From the NCBI GenBank assembly GCA_905209435.1, contig CAJLTE010000120.1, positions 1 to 7,902 of the forward strand: a stretch of DNA of 7,902 nucleotides, given 5' to 3'. Numbering within the stretch: position 1 is the stretch's first letter; every line of letters begins with the position of its first letter. A model generated the notes under the pieces. That model was not told the DNA's origin, searched no databases, and saw only the letters and a list, made by a program, of their open reading frames with translations. Positions 1 through 7,902 of the stretch are shown piece by piece. Origin of the DNA: an uncultured Blautia sp. (GTDB lineage Bacteria > Bacillota_A > Clostridia > Lachnospirales > Lachnospiraceae). Made by a program: the position numbers and the translations under genes.

Positions 1-214
1 TATGCAGGTCTACGAATGACCACATCTCGAATTTTGTTCCATCATCAGGACCTACAGTTGTTACTGCAGTAGGTTCTCCCTCAGCCGGTTCTTCGCTCTC
101 AGCAGCTTCTTCTGTTGTGTCTTCGTCATCTGCAAAGACATTCACTGCCATGCTCATGCTGGACACTGCCATAGCCGCAGTCATAAGTAATGCGAACAAT
201 TTTCTTCTCTTCAT
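1..214 (-). CDS. Sugar ABC transporter solute-binding protein, N-terminal part (runs off left edge)
   Basis: Reading leftward from the ATG at 214-212 gives 71 residues before the edge. Residues 1-5 (MKRRK) are basic, 6-28 are hydrophobic with a V-F-A ending typical of a signal peptidase I site, and 29-48 are strongly acidic (DDEDTTEEAAESEE...). Residues 62-69 (FEMWSFVD) resemble the first beta strand of family-1 extracellular sugar-binding proteins of clostridia. A perfect AGGAGG lies 8 nt upstream of the ATG (223-228). The family captures sugars or oligosaccharides outside the cell and delivers them to an ABC permease pair, which would be expected beyond the left edge. No lipobox cysteine is present, unusual for a Gram-positive binding protein. 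Next to arabinan-degrading genes, an arabino-oligosaccharide substrate is likely but not shown. Signal peptide and secretion are well supported; the exact family rests on a short stretch. Confidence 0.75.
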   Translation of the reverse strand, partial: MKRRKLFALLMTAAMAVSSMSMAVNVFADDEDTTEEAAESEEPAEGEPTAVTTVGPDDGTKFEMWSFVDLH

Positions 215-377: not shown

Positions 378-406
378 ATTATACAATTCATTCCTGTAAA
401 TGTCAA
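378..406 (-). promoter_or_regulatory. Consensus sigma-A promoter for the solute-binding protein unit
   Basis: On the minus strand TTGACA (406-401) and TATAAT (383-378) are separated by exactly 17 bp; both hexamers match the sigma-A consensus perfectly. Transcription should begin near 371, leaving an untranslated leader of about 157 nt before the ATG at 214. A weaker alternative, TTGACG (473-468) with TATTTT (450-445) at 17 bp, lies upstream. A promoter this strong would be expected to need a repressor or leader control, consistent with the palindromes just downstream. Confidence 0.8.
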
Positions 407-500
407 TATATTTTTGATTTATTTTTATTATTTTAGATTTTATTAAAATAAATAATTGATATTTATTCGTCAATCTTACCACATTTCTGCTGTTTTCCTA

Positions 501-610: not shown

Positions 611-1528
611 ATGAAATCCTGCTCTATTGAAGATGGCCTTACAATTTTTAAAGCTCTCGGATCTCCCGTCCGGGTCAGAATTCTGCGCCTGATCCAGGAG
701 AAAGAAGGTTTAAACATTAAGCAACTTGCACAAACACTTCAAATCCCGATTACAACTTTGTCTCCTCATCTTGGTCTGCTGGAAGAAGCCGGGTTAATCG
801 AATTTCAGGACGAAGCACTAAATCACGGTACCCAGAAGCGCTGCTATGCAGCAAAGGACTGGGAACAGCTTCTGGTAGACTTTACCCTCTCCCGTTCTAA
901 TCTGCAAATTTACAGCGCAGAGCTCGGTGTTGGACAGTTTTCAGATTTCTCCGTAACTCCTACCTGCGGCATGGCTACTGCTACATCATTTGTCGGCCAG
1001 CTGGATCAGCCTCGCTATTTCGTCCATCCAAGCAGCTATCAGGCACGAATCGTCTGGTTTACTACCGGATATCTGGAGTATATCCTGCCCAACTTCATTC
1101 CGGACAACAGTGTAATTGAAGAATTGACACTCTCTTTTGAGATCAGCTCTGAAGCGCCCAGATTCTGTGATGTGTGGCCTTCTGATATTACCTTTTCCCT
1201 GAACAGTATGATTCTGGGTACATGGACCAGTCCCGGAGATTACGGTGACCGCAGAGGAAAATATAATCCTGACTGGTGGTTTCCATTTCTCAACCAGTAT
1301 GGTTTATTAAAAAAACTGACAATTACTCCTGAGGGAACTTTTCTGGACGCAGAAAAGCTGTCCGATGTTTCCACCAGACAGCTTGCCCTTACTGATCAAT
1401 CTGTTATAAAGTTTCGTTTTTCAGTCCTGCCAGGAGCTGAAAATCCCGGAGGATGTACCCTGTTTGGTGCAGGTTTCGGAGATTATGACCAACATATCCG
1501 CATTACCATTGGATATCATCCCAGATAA
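611..1528 (+). CDS. Regulator 1: ArsR-type winged-helix protein fused to a large beta-rich putative sugar-sensing domain
   Basis: This 305-residue protein starts at an ATG 8 nt after a strong AAGGAGG (596-602). Residues ~8-80 form an ArsR-like winged helix: FKALGS (13-18), RVRILRLI (21-28), a helix-turn-helix at ~36-60 and LEEAGLI (57-63). The metal-binding Cys motif of classical ArsR metal sensors (ELCVCDL type) is absent from the DNA-recognition region. Residues ~105-305 form a second domain rich in Trp, Tyr, Gly and Asp with motifs PTCG (117-120), PRYFVHPS (134-141), LTLSFEISSEAP (172-183), GTWTSPGD (203-210), PDWWFP (220-225) and NQYGLLK (228-234). Aromatic-rich beta domains of this sort often bind carbohydrate, but I do not recognise a characterised family. 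Family members bind DNA as dimers and often repress. It diverges from the transporter gene and probably controls it and itself. Regulator 2 is its paralogue. Confidence 0.9.
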   Translation: MKSCSIEDGLTIFKALGSPVRVRILRLIQEKEGLNIKQLAQTLQIPITTLSPHLGLLEEAGLIEFQDEALNHGTQKRCYAAKDWEQLLVDFTLSRSNLQIYSAELGVGQFSDFSVTPTCGMATATSFVGQLDQPRYFVHPSSYQARIVWFTTGYLEYILPNFIPDNSVIEELTLSFEISSEAPRFCDVWPSDITFSLNSMILGTWTSPGDYGDRRGKYNPDWWFPFLNQYGLLKKLTITPEGTFLDAEKLSDVSTRQLALTDQSVIKFRFSVLPGAENPGGCTLFGAGFGDYDQHIRITIGYHPR

Positions 1529-1533
1529 ATTTC

Positions 1534-3102
1534 CTACGGTAAAAGATATTTTACACCCCAGATTGTTTCATTGTTTTCACCTTTTGCACTGAAGCACATC
1601 GTATTATTACCTGCCTCGTCAGTCATTTCCAGTGTAACACCTGTGTAAGTGTTTTCGCCAAGAGTCACGTTAATATATGGTGTGCCTTCTTCTGTGCTCC
1701 AGGCCCCGTCCAGTTCTTCTCCTGTGACGGTTCCGTCTGCGTTAAGCTGGATTTTCTGTGGTTTATGCACTTTGTCAGAAATATCTGTACCATGATCTAC
1801 CAGATAGAATGTCCCCTGAATCTCATCCACAGAATATCCATCCTCTTTCAAAGTCTCGCCGCTGGTCGCAAAAGGCGCTGCAACAAGCCAGCCATCTTTG
1901 GTACGGAATAACTGATGAACACGCGGTTCATGGAGTTCTCCTGTCTTGGCAAAACGCTGATGATAAACCAGATATAATTTGCCGTCTTCATCTTCAAATG
2001 AGGTCTGTCCGCCAGGTGCCATATAGGTCTGGGTAAGACTTGGAAAAGTATAATTTCCCATCATTTTCAAACCATGATCCTTGTGTTCTACAAAAAGATA
2101 CATATCCTTTCCTGCTGCATCAGTATAGGTTCCGTCTACTGTATCACAGCGGAAAAGACGTATCTGATATCCGCCTTTTGCCTGCAGATTTCCGTAGGAA
2201 AGAAACAGATAATAATACCCACTGGTCTTATCGTACATGATGTGCGGACCCTCAATAGAATTGTGATAACCGCCAAGGAGTTTCTTGCCATAGTAACTGT
2301 CTACGTGATTTTCTTCGTCTGCTTCCGGATAAATCGGATATCCTGTCTCTTCATCAATTTCAATCAGGAAAATACCACCGGACCAGGAACCGTAAACCAT
2401 CCACATCCGGCCGTCTTCATCATAAAAAACATCCGGGTCAATACAGTTCGGCCAGTTATTGTTATCATAAGCTGCCGCTGTATATGGTCTTGGATCTGTT
2501 CCCATCAATTCTTCGATGTTGTTTTCTTTTACATCATGATAGCTGTATCCGGAGTACAGAAAAGTATCCTGGTAATGGTATGGTCCTTCGATATTATCTG
2601 CTGTTGCAAAGCAGATATTGGATTTCACATAGGAAGATGTGGTGCAGAAATACATTACATATTTTCCCATTTTTTTATTGTATATAACATCTGGCGCCCA
2701 TACAGAATAGCCACCTTCCTCATTCTTTCCTACATAGGCAAATGCTGCCGGATCACCGTCTTCTTCTCCGTCAAAAAGATTATCAAACAGCTTGTTGTCT
2801 GCATTGACCCCAGAAGAAAAACTGGTCCAGTTTCTGAGATCTGTAGATTTTGCAGACTCCATATGAGAGCCAAAAATATAATAAATACCATTATCCTTGA
2901 TGATGGACGGATCATGCACAGAAGCTCCGGCTGAGAAACCGCCTTTCTTAATCTGACTCTCAATATCATCTGTGGTATCAGCAGATTCTTCTGCAGATAA
3001 TTCAGTCTCTGTATTTTCTGTTGTTTCTGCAGCATATACGCCCTGTGATCCCAGAAGCATCATCCCTGTCAGTCCCAGAATTATTCCCCATTTTTTTCTC
3101 AT
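1534..3102 (-). CDS. Secreted GH43 endo-alpha-1,5-L-arabinanase (Abn2/AbnA-like)
   Basis: The protein has 522 residues. Residues 1-24 are a Sec signal peptide (MRKKWG, hydrophobic core, cleavage after GVYA), followed by an acidic E/T linker to ~53. The five-bladed beta-propeller spans ~60-415 with the GH43 triad visible: D64 (HDPSIIK, base), D222 (CIDPDVFYDEDG, pKa modulator) and E284 (SIEGPHI, acid). RVHQLFRTKDGW (394-405) matches the end of the Bacillus Abn2 propeller. Residues ~425-522 match the C-terminal beta-barrel domain found in endo-arabinanases. The family hydrolyses internal alpha-1,5 links of arabinan outside the cell. Where Abn2-type enzymes carry PGHNS with a calcium-site His, this one has APGGQTS (362-368). 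A longer frame to an ATG at 3165 exists, but it would overlap the upstream gene and lacks a ribosome site. It is the second gene of a two-gene unit, 22 nt after the exo-GH43, and ends 5 nt from regulator 1's stop. Confidence 0.88.
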   Translation of the reverse strand: MRKKWGIILGLTGMMLLGSQGVYAAETTENTETELSAEESADTTDDIESQIKKGGFSAGASVHDPSIIKDNGIYYIFGSHMESAKSTDLRNWTSFSSGVNADNKLFDNLFDGEEDGDPAAFAYVGKNEEGGYSVWAPDVIYNKKMGKYVMYFCTTSSYVKSNICFATADNIEGPYHYQDTFLYSGYSYHDVKENNIEELMGTDPRPYTAAAYDNNNWPNCIDPDVFYDEDGRMWMVYGSWSGGIFLIEIDEETGYPIYPEADEENHVDSYYGKKLLGGYHNSIEGPHIMYDKTSGYYYLFLSYGNLQAKGGYQIRLFRCDTVDGTYTDAAGKDMYLFVEHKDHGLKMMGNYTFPSLTQTYMAPGGQTSFEDEDGKLYLVYHQRFAKTGELHEPRVHQLFRTKDGWLVAAPFATSGETLKEDGYSVDEIQGTFYLVDHGTDISDKVHKPQKIQLNADGTVTGEELDGAWSTEEGTPYINVTLGENTYTGVTLEMTDEAGNNTMCFSAKGENNETIWGVKYLLP

Positions 3103-3109
3103 ACACATT

Positions 3110-3114
3110 CTCCT
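3110..3114 (-). promoter_or_regulatory. Ribosome binding site that fixes the endo-arabinanase start
   Basis: AGGAG on the minus strand (3114-3110) sits 7 nt before the ATG at 3102. The in-frame ATG at 3108-3106 is only 1 nt from the AGGAG and too close; the one at 3165 lies inside the preceding gene with no such site. Starting at 3102 also yields a clean signal peptide. Confidence 0.8.
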
Positions 3115-3124
3115 GTTTTTCAAA

Positions 3125-4081
3125 TTAGTCTTCGTAAGAAAATACCGGTGCACCTGTTTTCTCATCCCATCGGATTTTCATCAGCATGGCATGACGATTT
3201 GGATTATACAGCGGATCCCCTACGATTTCTGCCTCTGTTCTTGCATGATAAACCATAATTGGATTTCCCTCCTCGTCTACAGTGAAGGAATTGTGCCCCG
3301 GTCCGTAGATTCCTCTGGACTCATCTGTGCTAAGAACCGGATAACGTTCTTTTGTCCAGGATTTGGGATCAAGAAGGTCTGCATCTTCATCTGCTGTCAG
3401 CATTCCCATACAGTATGCAATACCTGTCTCAGATGCAGAATAGGTAAGATAAATTTTACCTTCATGATGGATAACTGCAGGTCCTTCATTTACCCAGAAT
3501 CCAACTCTTTCCCAGTCATAATCCGGTGTTGTGAGAAGTACCTGAACCGTTTTTAACTTGTATGGTGTTTCCATTTCACCGATGTAAAGATTGGAAATCT
3601 GTTTGCCGACTCCTACTTTTTCTGCCCATACATAATAATGTTTTCCCTTGTTTTCAAATACAGTTGCATCCAAAGAAAAGGCTTCAAAAGAAAATTCATC
3701 TTCATCTGCACGCCCCATCTTACCTTTCTCTGTCCAGGTTCCTGTAAGAGGGTCTGCATCTGCGCATTCCAGTACATACGGGCGGATTGCCCAGATATCA
3801 TTCTTATCTCCGCCTGCAAAATAGATGTACCATTTTCCCTCCAGATAGTGAAGTTCCGGTGCCCAGATATGTTTACTCATAATTCCTTCTTCATGCTTCT
3901 CCCAGACCGTAACTTCTTCTGCGTCTTTCAGTCCTGCCAGAGTTTCGCTTCTTCTCAGTACAATTCGATCATAAGCAGGTACAGATGCTGTGAAATAATA
4001 AGTTCCATCTGTGTGACGGTAAACATATGGGTCAGCCCTCTGCAGAATCCATGGCTCATTGTATTTAAGTTCTTCACTCAT
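3125..4081 (-). CDS. Intracellular GH43 exo-type alpha-L-arabinofuranosidase
   Basis: The protein has 318 residues with no signal peptide, so it acts in the cytoplasm. It is a single beta-propeller with the GH43 catalytic trio: D17 (LQRADPYVY, base), D138 (FSLDATVF, pKa modulator) and E199 (VNEGPAVI, acid). The GPGHNS motif (260-265) holds the His expected at the metal site. The ADPYVYRHTDGTYYFTAS start and single-domain length resemble GH43 subfamily 26 exo-alpha-1,5-L-arabinofuranosidases, which cut arabinose from imported arabino-oligosaccharides; the subfamily is from memory and unverified. The ribosome site is AAGGGGG (4097-4091), 9 nt from the ATG. It is the first gene of the unit with the endo-arabinanase, 22 nt upstream of it. 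It could instead be an arabinofuranosidase with other linkage preference or, less likely, a xylosidase. Confidence 0.87.
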   Translation of the reverse strand: MSEELKYNEPWILQRADPYVYRHTDGTYYFTASVPAYDRIVLRRSETLAGLKDAEEVTVWEKHEEGIMSKHIWAPELHYLEGKWYIYFAGGDKNDIWAIRPYVLECADADPLTGTWTEKGKMGRADEDEFSFEAFSLDATVFENKGKHYYVWAEKVGVGKQISNLYIGEMETPYKLKTVQVLLTTPDYDWERVGFWVNEGPAVIHHEGKIYLTYSASETGIAYCMGMLTADEDADLLDPKSWTKERYPVLSTDESRGIYGPGHNSFTVDEEGNPIMVYHARTEAEIVGDPLYNPNRHAMLMKIRWDEKTGAPVFSYED

Positions 4082-4149
4082 TGTTTATATCCCCCTTCGT
4101 TTTTGCGTTTTATTTTAGATTAATATAAAGTATTTTTTATATATTTAAA

Positions 4150-4178
4150 AGTGTAACGCATTTTTCAGAAAATATCAA
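4150..4178 (-). promoter_or_regulatory. Candidate promoter of the GH43 pair
   Basis: On the minus strand TTGATA (4178-4173) and TACACT (4155-4150) are spaced by 17 bp. The -35 matches consensus at five of six positions and the -10 at four of six. A start near 4143 would give a leader of about 62 nt. The weak -10 fits an activated or tightly controlled promoter. Other AT-rich -10 possibilities lie between 4100 and 4145. Confidence 0.45.
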
Positions 4179-4197
4179 CTATATTTTTTTCTTTTCA

Positions 4198-4226
4198 TTG
4201 CACATTTTTTTCGGATTCGTTATAAT
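4198..4226 (+). promoter_or_regulatory. Sigma-A promoter of regulator 2
   Basis: TTGCAC (4198-4203) and a perfect TATAAT (4221-4226) are separated by 17 bp. The start should be near 4233, leaving a leader of about 79 nt. The -35 box lies only 19 bp from the -35 of the divergent GH43 promoter, so one bound regulator could affect both. Confidence 0.7.
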
Positions 4227-4230
4227 TTAT

Positions 4231-4244
4231 CGTAAACGCTGAAA
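4231..4244 (+). promoter_or_regulatory. cre-like catabolite-repression site
   Basis: CGTAAACGCTGAAA matches the Gram-positive cre consensus TGWAANCGNTNWCA at 10 of 12 defined positions (mismatches at the first T and the C near the end). It overlaps the predicted start of the regulator 2 transcript, a usual position for CcpA-type repression. CcpA control is inferred; the imperfect match keeps confidence moderate. Confidence 0.4.
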
Positions 4245-4275
4245 ACGGCTGAACGTTACCAGATCCGAAGCCGTT
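4244..4275. repeat. Inverted repeat in the leader of regulator 2
   Basis: AACGGCT (4244-4250) and AGCCGTT (4269-4275) are exact reverse complements with an 18-nt centre that contains TTACCA (4256-4261), the half-site found repeatedly upstream of regulator 1. It may be an operator or an RNA hairpin in the leader. It lacks a T-run, so it is not a terminator. Confidence 0.4.
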
Positions 4276-4311
4276 GAAGATGTACTCTAAATTCAGAAAG
4301 GGAAATCCGTT

Positions 4312-5235
4312 ATGTTGTATATTAAAAGTCTGGAACAGGCAGTCCCTGTTTTTAAGGCCCTTGGTTCCGAACTCCGTGTACGGTTGATCCAGATTCTTCT
4401 TGAGCATCAGGAAATGAATATGAACGAGCTGGCTTCCAGTCTGGGAATTACCAACGGTGCCCTGACCAGCCACGTAAAGAAACTGGAAGAAGCCGGAATT
4501 CTTGCGATCCTGCCAGAGCATTCCGGTCATGGCAACCAGAAAGTCTGCCGCATTAATGTTGACAAGATCCTGGTTGACATTGCCTCCAACAATGACAGCA
4601 CAGCTGAGGACAGCTACTCTATTGATATTCCGATCGGCAATTATTTTAATTATTCTGTTTATCCAACCTGTGGTCTTTCTACTACCGAGAATCTGATCGG
4701 CGAGGTAGATGATCCGCGTTACTTTGCTCATCCCAGCCATGTGGATGCAAGAATCCTGTGGTTTGGTCGGGGATTTATTGATTACCGTATCCCGAATATG
4801 CTCCCTCCTGGACAAAAAATCGACCGTCTTACACTCTCCTTTGAAATCAGTTCAGAAGCTCCGGGAGTCAACAGTGACTGGCCATCCGATATTTCATTTT
4901 TCCTGAATAATACAAAAATCGGAACATGGACAAGCCCCGGAGATTTTGGTGATGTTCATGGTATGTTTACTCCTGACTGGTGGTTTCCAAACTGGAATCA
5001 GTATGGTCTGCTGAAGATGCTTGTTATTGACCGTCACGGTACTTTTATCGATGGTCTGAAGATTTCAGATGTGAATACTCAGCAGCTTACTTTTACCTCT
5101 CAGGATGATATGGTATTCCGCTTCCAGGTAGATGAACCATCCCAGAACATCGGTGGTCTGACACTCTTTGGCAAAGATTTCGGAAACTATAATCAGGATA
5201 TTAATGTGAAAGTGCATTATACTCCGAATGTGTAA
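4312..5235 (+). CDS. Regulator 2: ArsR-type winged-helix protein fused to the same beta-rich domain
   Basis: This 307-residue protein is a paralogue of the product of 611-1528. The ArsR-like winged helix covers ~9-82: FKALGS (14-19), LRVRLIQILL (21-30), a helix-turn-helix at ~37-60 and LEEAGIL (58-64); no metal-site Cys pair is seen. The C-terminal domain (~108-307) repeats the motifs PTCG (118-121), PRYFAHPS, LTLSFEISSEAP, DWPSDI, GTWTSPGD, PDWWFP, NQYGLLK and GGLTLFG. From PTCG onward I count about 102 identities in ~187 residues without internal gaps; the N-terminal halves share about 35 in ~116. The ATG has a modest ribosome site (GAAAGGGA, 4296-4303). It is divergent from the GH43 pair, its likely target, and convergent with the GH127 unit, from which a shared terminator separates it. 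A sugar ligand is inferred from context. Confidence 0.9.
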   Translation: MLYIKSLEQAVPVFKALGSELRVRLIQILLEHQEMNMNELASSLGITNGALTSHVKKLEEAGILAILPEHSGHGNQKVCRINVDKILVDIASNNDSTAEDSYSIDIPIGNYFNYSVYPTCGLSTTENLIGEVDDPRYFAHPSHVDARILWFGRGFIDYRIPNMLPPGQKIDRLTLSFEISSEAPGVNSDWPSDISFFLNNTKIGTWTSPGDFGDVHGMFTPDWWFPNWNQYGLLKMLVIDRHGTFIDGLKISDVNTQQLTFTSQDDMVFRFQVDEPSQNIGGLTLFGKDFGNYNQDINVKVHYTPNV

Positions 5236-5297: not shown

Positions 5298-7214
5298 TTA
5301 TTCTCCGCGCATCCAGACTCTCATCTGGTTTTCTCCGCGGTTGCCCCATGTGTAATATGGCACTGCAGTCAGTGTCGCAAGTGTCCTCACCGGTGATACT
5401 TCGCTGTACAGAGAATCTCCTACCGTCTCCAGCTTACGTGCTTTAATCCTGAGCAGAACACAGCCTTCCAGCAGACCTTCTTTGCAGATTTCCTCTTCTG
5501 TCCTTGCATCTTCAAAAATATGATAAGACTGAAGCAGTCCCGGATTGTCCACACCCTCAAAGCAATAGACGATCGGACCACGCATAAATGCCACACAGCC
5601 TGCATCTTCTCTTACTTTAAGATTCGCATAGATCTTACGGATCTTCATAGGGAAAACAAGTTCTACTACATCATTTTCCCACACTCGCTTAAGAATCAGA
5701 TAACCTTTTTCCACATTAGCAGTGATATTCTCCACTTTTCCGTTAATACGCACCTGCACACTGCCCGGGCGTACCCAGGATGGAATGTGGATTCCCAGAA
5801 TAGTTGCTTCTTCTGTTTTTCCGGTTACATGATAGGTCACTTTGCCATCCCATGGATAGTTGCTCTCTACAGTTACATCCAACTTATCAAAGTGTGCTTC
5901 TGTGCCTGCCGGAATATGAGAATAAACGCCATCTTCTGTCTCACTCCACAAATATTTGCCAAGAGACATCAGCAAACGGACCACATTTGGAGGACAGCAT
6001 GCGCAGGTATACCAGCCCGGACGCTCCGGCAGAACGTGTTTATGTCCATACAATTTTCCGCTGACTCCCGGCTCGGTTTCCAGTGGATTTACATAGAAAA
6101 ATCTCTTTCCATCAAGCTGCATTCCACTGATAATTCCATTGTAAAGCGCACGCTCCATCACGTCCGCATAGCGTCCGTCCATCACATTATCAAGCATTTT
6201 TCTTGCAAAAAATACCAGTCCGATGGATGCACAGGTTTCTGCATAAACGGTATCGTTCGGCAGGTCATAATCAATAGTAAACGCTTCTCCGTCTACAGTG
6301 CTGCCGATTCCTCCGGTAATATACATTCTCTTCTGGGTCATGTTCTCCCAGAGATCACAGCATGCCTGATAGAGCTTTTCATCTTTGTAAAGAGAAGCCA
6401 GTTCTGCCATAGCAGTGTACATATACACCGCACGGACGCTATGTCCCACTGCTTCTTTCTGTTCATAGACAGTGGCATGGACCTGGTTATACTCTCTATT
6501 ATTCACATCCATATCAAAGTGAACCCAGCCTCTTTTTTCCTTTTCTTTTACAAAGTAATCCGGATCTTTTCCACGCTGTTCAATGAAATATCTGGCAAGG
6601 TTTCTGTAGCTTTCTTTTCCGGTTACTTCGTAAAGGCGCAGAAGTCCCAGTTCAATTTCCTGATGTCCCGGAATCCCCGGTTCTTTACCTTCTTCTGTTC
6701 CGAAACGTTTCTCAATGTGCTCTGCCATACGCTCCATGACATGAAGCAGACGATCTTTTCCAGTTACTTCGTAGTATGCTGCCGCAGCTTCCATCATATG
6801 CCCTGCGCAATATAATTCATGACATTCCTGCAGATTCTGCCAACGATGTTCGGGCTCTTTAATTGTAAAAAATGTATTCAGATATCCATCATCCTGCTGT
6901 GCTTTTTCAATGATCTCAATAACCTTATCTGCACGTTCTTCCAGTTCAGGATCCGGACGGACTTCCAATGCATATGCCACGCCTTCCAGCCATTTGGCAA
7001 CATCACTGTCCTGAAAAACCATTCCATAAAACTCGCCCTCTTCCAGGCCTGCTGCAATACGGAAGTTTGCCAGTGCATGGCTCTTCTCCACTCCCGGAAT
7101 CTCATCATTTAATATTTTCTCCTGATAAGGAATGACTGTATCCATTACCAGTTCCTGATATCCATGCCAGAACGCATCTGTCACTTTTACCTTATTTAAC
7201 AAACTTTCTCTCAT
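5298..7214 (-). CDS. GH127 beta-L-arabinofuranosidase (HypBA1-like)
   Basis: The protein has 638 residues, close to the ~658 of Bifidobacterium longum HypBA1. Residues ~1-420 form the (alpha/alpha)6 barrel and the remainder beta-sandwich domains. The zinc/cysteine active site is intact: E310 (VDGEAF) matches HypBA1 acid/base E322, E326 and C328 (YAETCAS) match E338 and C340, and C406-C407 (CACCPPN) match the nucleophile C417 and ligand C418. No signal peptide is present, so it is cytoplasmic. The family releases beta-L-arabinofuranose, for example from beta-1,2-linked arabinobiose. The start is MRESLL at 7214, with GGGAGG 8 nt upstream; a longer frame to 7304 would run inside the preceding gene. 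Its ATG overlaps that gene's TGA (ATGA). It is the last gene of the GH51 unit and ends at the hairpin terminator. Confidence 0.93.
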   Translation of the reverse strand: MRESLLNKVKVTDAFWHGYQELVMDTVIPYQEKILNDEIPGVEKSHALANFRIAAGLEEGEFYGMVFQDSDVAKWLEGVAYALEVRPDPELEERADKVIEIIEKAQQDDGYLNTFFTIKEPEHRWQNLQECHELYCAGHMMEAAAAYYEVTGKDRLLHVMERMAEHIEKRFGTEEGKEPGIPGHQEIELGLLRLYEVTGKESYRNLARYFIEQRGKDPDYFVKEKEKRGWVHFDMDVNNREYNQVHATVYEQKEAVGHSVRAVYMYTAMAELASLYKDEKLYQACCDLWENMTQKRMYITGGIGSTVDGEAFTIDYDLPNDTVYAETCASIGLVFFARKMLDNVMDGRYADVMERALYNGIISGMQLDGKRFFYVNPLETEPGVSGKLYGHKHVLPERPGWYTCACCPPNVVRLLMSLGKYLWSETEDGVYSHIPAGTEAHFDKLDVTVESNYPWDGKVTYHVTGKTEEATILGIHIPSWVRPGSVQVRINGKVENITANVEKGYLILKRVWENDVVELVFPMKIRKIYANLKVREDAGCVAFMRGPIVYCFEGVDNPGLLQSYHIFEDARTEEEICKEGLLEGCVLLRIKARKLETVGDSLYSEVSPVRTLATLTAVPYYTWGNRGENQMRVWMRGE

Positions 7215-7483
7215 TTCTGCGCCTCCCATTTTGCCGGAAGATCCGGACATTTTCGCACCTTCTGTACAGCCCGCAGTTCCACAAAGCATCCACAGAGTCT
7301 GCACATCCCATTCATCAACCGGTCACAGGTGCTGCATATGTTCAGTCTTTTCTCGTAGGCCCGCTGATCTACTTTCAGATCCTCATCCATACGCTGGATA
7401 TAGCGTGACAGATCCTCATAAAAAGCTTCTTCATTATTCTGTTCAGGCAAACATTTCCTGCACACACGCAACTTCCCGTTCAT
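7211..7483 (-). CDS. Small Cys-rich zinc-ribbon-like protein (DUF6171-like)
   Basis: The 90-residue product has eight cysteines arranged as C8-x2-C11, C50-x2-C53, C61-x2-C64-x-C66 and C79, a pattern typical of zinc-binding ribbons. A charged helical stretch (~17-47) separates the first pair from the rest. The segment NICSTCDRLMNGMCRLCGCFVEL recalls the DUF6171 family of clostridia; this is recognition from memory and the function is unknown. AAGGAG lies 8 nt before the ATG. It starts 27 nt after the GH51 stop and overlaps the GH127 start by 4 nt, so it is made together with the sugar enzymes. Possible roles are metal handling or protein interaction, but nothing in the sequence proves either. 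Confidence 0.85.
   Translation of the reverse strand: MNGKLRVCRKCLPEQNNEEAFYEDLSRYIQRMDEDLKVDQRAYEKRLNICSTCDRLMNGMCRLCGCFVELRAVQKVRKCPDLPAKWEAQK
7222..7227 (-). promoter_or_regulatory. Ribosome binding site of GH127 inside the upstream gene
   Basis: GGGAGG (7227-7222) lies 7 nt before the GH127 ATG and inside the last codons of the small Cys-rich gene. With the ATGA stop/start overlap it indicates translational coupling, and it decides the 7214 start over the longer frame. Confidence 0.8.
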
Positions 7484-7510: not shown

Positions 7511-7902
7511 TTATCTTACTTCCAGGTGAAGAACGCTGCACTTAGGAATTGTAAATTTAATTCCTTCTGCTGTTTTTTCTACTTCATTAAATTCTTTTAC
7601 ACGAACCTGATCTGGTGTTTCAAATGTGTTCATTTCGTGCATTTCGCCGTGTACAATCTCACCTTTGACTTCATTTACCTGATAATCTGTAAGAATAGTT
7701 CTGATTTCATAATCTTTGTCAAGAGACAGGTTTGTCAGCGTGATATGTACAGCTCCGTCCCCTGCTACAGACACGGATTCTGTCAGGTTCGGTACCTGCC
7801 ATTCATCTTCCACACCGATGGTTTCTGTCTCAACAGAACTGTCTACAAGCATTGCATCCTGATGATATTTATACATATCAAATACATGATAAGTTGGTGT
7901 CA
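7511..7902 (-). CDS. GH51 alpha-L-arabinofuranosidase, C-terminal part (runs off right edge)
   Basis: The reading frame is open to the right edge and encodes the last ~130 residues. It begins TPTYHVFDMYKYHQDA, the hallmark of GH51 arabinofuranosidases just after the catalytic barrel, followed by the C-terminal beta-sandwich: VHITLTNLSLDKDYEI, a GEIVHGEMHEMNTFETPDQV segment and the closing SVLHLEVR. The catalytic glutamates lie outside the window. The family is normally cytoplasmic and removes terminal alpha-L-arabinofuranose from arabinan or arabinoxylan oligosaccharides. No signal can be checked here. It is the upstream gene of the unit that continues with the Cys-rich protein and GH127. Confidence 0.88.
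   Translation of the reverse strand, partial: TPTYHVFDMYKYHQDAMLVDSSVETETIGVEDEWQVPNLTESVSVAGDGAVHITLTNLSLDKDYEIRTILTDYQVNEVKGEIVHGEMHEMNTFETPDQVRVKEFNEVEKTAEGIKFTIPKCSVLHLEVR

Follow-up and report, generated by a model that had tools for sequence, protein, structure and literature searches.

Two paralogous genes in a 7,902-nucleotide stretch of DNA from an uncultured Blautia sp. (contig CAJLTE010000120.1 of assembly GCA_905209435.1; hereafter the window) encode regulators that join an ArsR-like winged helix to a C-terminal domain of about 210 residues, and these genes are interleaved with genes for arabinan degradation. We consider it probable that both proteins are cytosolic one-component transcription factors for the arabinan cluster, in which the C-terminal domain, similar to carbohydrate-binding modules (CBMs) in its predicted fold, senses a sugar inducer. 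Many gut and soil bacteria use arabinan of the plant cell wall as a carbon source, and roughly one in four sampled genomes of Blautia's family, along with most of those of another sampled family, encode members of the regulator family. The CBM-like fold is best known from secreted proteins, and its use as an intracellular sensor is the unusual feature of this system; one-component sugar regulators are already known.

Architecture of the regulator pair

The regulators and their sensor domains are located as follows.

611..1528, + strand: regulator 1, 305 amino acids, ATG start; ArsR-like winged helix and CBM-like sensor domain (open reading frame, helix-turn-helix Pfam matches, tree)
896..1525, + strand: sensor domain of regulator 1, by alignment (A3) to the modelled domain of regulator 2
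4312..5235, + strand: regulator 2, 307 amino acids, ATG start; ArsR-like winged helix and sensor domain (open reading frame, Pfam, tree)
4600..5232, + strand: sensor domain of regulator 2, modelled alone (predicted local distance difference test 94.8, predicted template modelling score 0.91); predicted CBM6/35/36-like beta-sandwich

Both open reading frames (ORFs) lie where the first-pass annotation, which was made from the DNA letters, had placed them, and the four blocks it had called invariant (LTLSFEISSEAP, GTWTSPGD, PDWWFP and NQYGLLK) are identical to the letter in the two proteins, which share 47% identity across 303 aligned positions. The ArsR-type winged helix that it had assigned was recovered, since the N-terminal part matches HTH_20, HTH_5 (arsR) and HTH_24 over the Pfam cut-offs; with the NCBI metalloregulator model NF033788 the regulators score 49.8 and 43.5 bits, under the cut-off of 55. 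In ArsR metalloregulators, an ELCVCDL-type Cys pair in the helix region is the metal-site motif, and ArsR/SmtB members also carry a C-terminal alpha-5 dimer helix. Unlike CzrA, CadC and SmtB, the regulators described here lack this Cys pair in the first 90 residues, as the annotation had noted. The sole Cys of that region in regulator 2 is C79, regulator 1 has C4 and C78, and residues 5-77 contain none in either protein. In the predicted model the head has four helices with no fifth, followed by strands and a weakly predicted linker. The large sensor domain after the head and the sugar context also differ from these metalloregulators.

No match above cut-off was obtained for the C-terminal part of either regulator in Pfam or NCBIfam, and none of the Pfam CBM families matched them by sequence. 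When 53 relatives (alignment A2, which excludes P0051, a protein with an internal duplication) were scanned with Pfam, nearly all matches were DNA-binding models and no CBM was present among the 25 of 42 families listed. A search of PDB sequences gave matches confined to the head, except for one phage tail protein at E 0.9. The fold search with the domain modelled alone, a check proposed by the annotation, placed CBM6, CBM35 and CBM36 beta-sandwiches at the head of the list, and the predicted domain contains a beta-sandwich (jelly-roll) core of this type.

A quick tree of 100 members (less than 78% identity) divides into groups of 79 and 21. The larger group comprises 67 arabinan-labelled, 7 unlabelled and 4 transporter-only members and 1 glycoside hydrolase family 2 (GH2) member, and the smaller one 7 galactose, 7 GH2, 3 transporter-only, 3 arabinan and 1 unlabelled member. 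All seven galactose-operon members fall in a single clade (Shimodaira-Hasegawa-like approximate likelihood ratio test, SH-aLRT, 99). Residues passing a strict conservation cut in both halves include C120, D133, W150, E178, S181 and E182 together with S192, N199, D211, W224, Q230 and Q295, and the two branches differ at loop positions G130D, S208C, G210S and T284N. L-arabinose and D-galactose have matching stereochemistry.

Regulator 1 belongs to its own clade of 7 members and regulator 2 to a clade of five (SH-aLRT 100 for both). The recognition helix of regulator 1 reads TTLSPH, and STLSPH in most members of its clade; that of regulator 2 reads TNGALTSH, and TNGAVTQH in a Caldicellulosiruptor relative. 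Because the two proteins fall in separate supported clades, the tree points to an old duplication as the origin of the pair, and both copies are kept adjacent in several loci. Both copies are also present in the nearest named genome, Blautia sp. MSJ-9 (locus L001), in which regulator 2 is 97% identical.

In the galactose branch, one gene (L211:6854-9010) encodes an in-frame fusion of 718 amino acids comprising winged helix, sensor domain and galactokinase, and downstream of it lie a gene for a GalE-type epimerase and one that, by eye, resembles galT.

Arabinan genes in the window and across the family

The other genes of the window are as follows.

2..214, - strand: N-terminal part of a secreted protein, whose position points to the solute-binding protein of a sugar ATP-binding cassette (ABC) transporter; cut at the window end
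1534..3165, - strand: GH43 with a signal-peptide-like start; best NCBIfam match arabinan endo-1,5-alpha-L-arabinosidase AbnB, under cut-off
3125..4081, - strand: GH43, signal peptide not evident (Pfam)
5298..7304, - strand: GH127 beta-L-arabinofuranosidase-type enzyme (Pfam)
7211..7483, - strand: DUF6171 small Cys-rich protein (Pfam)
7511..7900, - strand: GH51 alpha-L-arabinofuranosidase, C-terminus (Pfam)

The interleaving with arabinan-degrading enzymes that the annotation had described is thus seen in Pfam as two GH43 genes, a GH127 gene and the C-terminus of a GH51 gene, all on the strand opposite to the regulators, with which they alternate. Regulator 1 is divergent from the secreted-protein gene and regulator 2 from a GH43 gene, and each divergent neighbour is a likely target of its regulator. 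The protein at 2..214 has a signal-peptide-like start by eye, and the same position in L001 holds an ABC solute-binding protein (own profile) in the order solute-binding protein, permease, permease.

We surveyed gene neighbourhoods in 120 loci including the window, seven of them from close Caldicellulosiruptor relatives, and then in 52 loci from deeper branches that do not overlap the first set (8 of 60 were dropped, their regulator being identical to an earlier one). The locus gene profiles were built from the surveyed loci themselves and representatives were verified in Pfam; among the 127 'regulators' of the first survey are a lipoprotein that lacks the head (L131) and a fragment (L130). 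GH51-, GH43- or GH127-type genes occur in 95/120 and 31/52 loci, respectively, and ABC-transporter genes in 66/120 and 28/52; in the first survey 103/120 loci have one or the other. Among the 21 loci of the second survey without these hydrolases, seven regulators stand beside or are fused to galactokinase/GalT genes, and others stand beside GH2, GH116 or ABC genes. A family dissociated from carbohydrate genes, which would have argued against sugar sensing, did not appear, and with our own profiles 163 of 184 members (duplicates included) have one or more sugar genes no further than 5 kb away.

This association fades with distance. Hydrolases account for 125/412 of the ORFs of at least 150 amino acids within 2 kb, then for 42/312, 38/304 and 26/232, and finally for 2/125 at 8-10 kb and 0/8 beyond. 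We also compared in Pfam 100 of 217 adjacent with 100 of 191 distant genes, picked at random below 1200 amino acids from 112 loci, a set that omits six Caldicellulosiruptor near-copies and two G377 regions (L114, L132). GH43 was found 20 times against 3, SBP_bac_1 15 times against 2, and the arabinofuranosidase C-terminus 14 times against none, among the 25 families listed.

In protein searches, 7170/7998, 1012/1909 and 7290/7998 scored candidates matched at E 0.001 or better, among which the weak ones may rest on the winged helix alone. Members were detected in 103/397 sampled genomes of the family and 24/398 of the phylum to which the L001 genome (G001) belongs, the latter sample at a tighter threshold of E 1e-15, with scoring confined to a few candidates in each genome. 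The family of genome G336 gave 129/148 positives with 1-7 matches apiece, and a scan of viral contigs confirmed no relatives. Positives numbered 9/198 in the phylum of a Treponema sp. metagenome-assembled genome, whose copy (L053) sits among Bacillota members in the tree; this placement suggests transfer or a mis-binned contig, and eight more genomes of that phylum sample are positive.

Some observations on neighbouring genes stand apart from the regulators. The top NCBIfam match of the GH127 protein is aceric acid hydrolase, far under the cut-off (414.9 of 950 bits). DUF6171 genes, of unknown function, are present in 33/120 loci including the window, and in 25 of these 33 they lie at most 250 bp from a GH51-like gene. 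An 'unknown 88 a.a. protein' appears beside an arabinofuranosidase in Geobacillus clusters (PMC4428132, Table 6), and it may be the DUF6171 protein; the same source also gives a Geobacillus cluster headed by a gene named 'ArsR family'. Among 100 genes within 800 bp of regulators (A4), a methyl-accepting chemotaxis protein domain was found in four and a PocR sensory domain in two, so a chemotaxis link is possible.

A 24-bp palindrome in the upstream regions

The upstream regions of regulator-2-like genes yielded a 24-bp palindrome, TTATTTTAG-N6-CTAAAATAA. At three mismatches or fewer it is found in 14/35 of these regions, the source set of the pattern, against 1/350 shuffles, and in 6/24 upstream regions of other members against 3/240. 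The window contains two such matches, and 200 shuffles of it contained none.

428..451, no strand assigned: predicted operator TTATTTTAGATTTTATTAAAATAA, 1 mismatch; between the solute-binding protein gene and regulator 1
4110..4133, no strand assigned: predicted operator TTATTTTAGATTAATATAAAGTAT, 3 mismatches; lies 29-52 bp upstream of the GH43 start codon (ATG) and overlaps a weak promoter-like -10
378..406, - strand: promoter-like TTGACA-17-TATAAT, 12/12 match; faces the solute-binding protein gene, with the operator at 428-451 upstream of its -35

The palindrome is conserved beyond the window. The nearest genome, of 3.7 Mb, contains three matches with two mismatches or fewer, one in the gap between transporter and regulator 1, one in the region before the GH51-DUF6171-GH127 genes, and one elsewhere. 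The 120 loci (1.96 Mb) hold 34 sites, of which 22 precede a regulator, 9 a hydrolase or ABC gene and 1 another gene, with 2 elsewhere; none lies inside an ORF of at least 150 amino acids, and reversed and complemented control patterns gave none. Excluding the six near-copy Caldicellulosiruptor loci leaves 27 sites, 15 of them before a regulator. The 52 new loci (0.72 Mb) add 7 sites (5 before a regulator, 1 before a GH43 gene, 1 within a gene).

The palindrome also follows the recognition helix. It occurs upstream of 21/58 members with an NGA-type helix at three mismatches or fewer (shuffles 7/1160) and of 5/7 with the regulator-1-type helix (shuffles 2/140), while two other helix groups gave 0/12 and 0/21; 2 of the 100 members, with short upstream DNA, were left out. 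By eye, none of the seven galactose-branch upstream regions offered an operator that could be claimed. Mere AT-richness as the source of the pattern is opposed by the shuffles, the scrambled patterns and the regulators with other helices, although the whole-genome controls are weaker (4/7, see below).

A promoter-like -10 is present about 20 bp upstream of the site before the L001 GH51 gene, and the GH43 site of the window lies over a weak one; based on these positions, the enzyme genes are likely repressed by the regulator. Reading all sites as repressor sites fits poorly with the transporter promoter, where the site is upstream of the -35; such a position would suit DNA looping, activation, or a site that serves to control regulator 1.

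A perfect 11-nt inverted repeat, TTATTTTACCA-N6-TGGTAAAATAA, lies at 504-514/521-531, upstream of regulator 1. It was considered as a second operator and rejected, as a perfect repeat was present there in 0/7 orthologous upstream regions and it overlaps a -10-like stretch. L001 partly resembles it by eye, which amounts to partial conservation at most.

Proposed mechanism, rival explanations and precedent

The computations support the domain architecture, the predicted fold of the sensor domain, the gene context, and the conservation of the operator with its dependence on helix type; we infer a sugar ligand, its identity, a dimer and a direction of control in the following scheme. The ArsR-like head would bind the 24-bp operator as a dimer, since the operator is palindromic. 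The CBM6/35/36-like beta-sandwich would bind the inducer, for which the likeliest candidates are L-arabinose and a short arabino-oligosaccharide. The inducer would enter through the neighbouring ABC transporter, and its binding would alter the affinity for DNA and thereby control the transporter, the GH43 genes and the GH51-DUF6171-GH127 genes. Regulator 2 would bear the recognition helix matching this operator, and regulator 1 would be an old paralogue with a different helix and perhaps a different site or ligand preference. For the family as a whole we lean, by a small measure, towards a widespread class in which a CBM-like sandwich has become an intracellular ligand domain on an ArsR-like head, with a pocket retuned between L-arabinose and D-galactose and a 24-bp operator code of its own read by the helix.

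Several results weigh against this scheme. The similarity of the sensor domain to CBM entries is limited, with Foldseek TM-scores of about 0.31-0.40 (normalised by domain) and about 75-95 of the 211 domain residues unaligned, and its profile against PDB sequences returned a single row, an IgA Fc receptor at E 0.69, with no carbohydrate-binding chain. BcsB and Cry-toxin sandwiches score about equal to the CBMs, and therefore the fold alone is no proof of sugar binding. Permeases are not enriched beside the regulator gene (4 against 6 of 100), and 21/184 members have no sugar gene inside 5 kb. Counts of the palindrome in regulator-2-like upstream regions are partly circular, as these regions supplied the pattern; the palindrome is recognisable in only 21 of the 58 NGA-type regions, part of which are that same source set, and the site before regulator 2 itself is weak, with three mismatches. 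Of seven genomes scanned in full, four contained the reversed control at roughly the same frequency as the palindrome or at a higher one (pattern against control: G343 2 v 6, G364 7 v 6, G345 2 v 3, G356 0 v 3), and single genome-wide sites therefore carry little weight. Promoter-like matches other than the 12/12 match at 378..406 are near chance in number (3 v 2.4, 3 v 1.2, 2 v 1.6), and the site at the transporter promoter is as compatible with an activator or looping as with a repressor. Finally, C120 is invariant in 100/100 tree members, which leaves room for thiol chemistry.

This last point bears on whether the proteins could be ordinary ArsR redox or metal sensors with an extra domain, with C120 and C79, the latter in the wing, as the sensing residues. 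Detection of metals or redox state is the classical role of ArsR-fold proteins, and the two Cys are kept in 79/79 and 21/21 (C120) and in 72/79 and 21/21 (C79) members of the tree halves. However, the helix region has no Cys pair, the metalloregulator model scores under its cut-off, and the standout neighbours are sugar genes, and we regard this explanation as very improbable. A little less remote, though still decidedly unlikely, is a nutrient-linked regulator whose sandwich is an interaction module for a protein or cell component rather than a ligand pocket: beta-sandwiches often serve as interaction folds, and the top Foldseek matches are BcsB sandwiches, which function in an assembly. The strongly conserved aromatic and acidic residues and the galactose operons in one clade fit a small ligand better.

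We give somewhat more credit, while still finding it unlikely, to the same one-component regulators responding to a phosphorylated or modified intermediate, such as a sugar phosphate, and not to the free sugar. Cytosolic sensors often respond to intermediates, and one galactose-branch member is fused to galactokinase, the product of which is galactose 1-phosphate. Basic residues of the domain are nearly as conserved as those passing the strict cut (K235 in 78/79 and 15/21, R/H at 143 in 76/79 and 21/21, and R136 in 68/79 and 10/21), but the set that passes it in both halves includes neither Arg nor Lys from the domain, and the modules to which the fold is similar have neutral or uronic sugars as ligands. 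Sensing of a sugar inducer, as a carbohydrate sensor built on this fold had been proposed in the first-pass annotation, is therefore the reading we retain: the fold search and the neighbourhoods favour it, and neither a non-sugar ligand nor an enzymatic family for the C-terminal domain appeared, while sugar binding itself is what we infer and no known CBM family was matched.

The annotation had also recognised no characterised family for the C-terminal domain, and this agrees with Pfam and NCBIfam, except that a precedent regulator exists. ArbA, an ArsR-family protein encoded divergently from abfA in Caldicellulosiruptor, was predicted in 2021 as a carbohydrate regulator and called the first ArsR-family example in carbohydrate use; that account also gives three predicted ArbA sites in the abfA-arbA gap and lists 'ArbR (ArsR family)', presumably ArbA, among likely repressors (PMC8579813). 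ArbA is very probably a member of the family described here, judged from its counterparts in our loci. An ArsR-like family gene is divergent from GH51 in 3/7 Caldicellulosiruptor-like loci (L135, L139, L140), and 7/7 carry one to three palindromes (three mismatches or fewer) before the gene, a placement comparable to that of the predicted ArbA sites. The L134 protein has a 90% identical relative (P0229) named Caldicellulosiruptor sp. F32, and regulator 2 shares 53% identity with the L086 copy. The Blautia cluster differs in having two paralogues, GH127 and DUF6171, and neither a sensor domain nor a ligand, paralogues or a galactose branch is mentioned in the excerpts of PMC8579813. Searches of open-licence PubMed Central papers turned up no account of the sensor domain or of the galactose branch.

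With a predicted operator and a predicted fold now attached to a sensor half that has no Pfam domain, regulon predictions and direct tests become feasible, and a sandwich that does bind sugar intracellularly would represent an extra sensor fold for sugars and a possible arabinose/galactose biosensor pair. AraR and AraC likewise exert one-component control of arabinose or arabinan genes, with unrelated sensor folds (periplasmic-binding-protein-like and cupin, respectively). RsgI anti-sigma factors sense polysaccharide through extracellular CBMs, but they span the membrane and act via a sigma factor, whereas here the sensor and the DNA-binding part are within one protein. In contrast to CBM6, CBM35 and CBM36, the sensor domain is not attached to a secreted enzyme and would be cytosolic because it is joined to a DNA-binding head. 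A sensor-like domain (E 4e-27) is also present in a 710-residue protein (L131:6110-8242, the same gene as L107:187-2319) that starts like a lipoprotein, lacks a winged helix and is not matched by Pfam; based on this start, the domain seems to exist outside cells as well.

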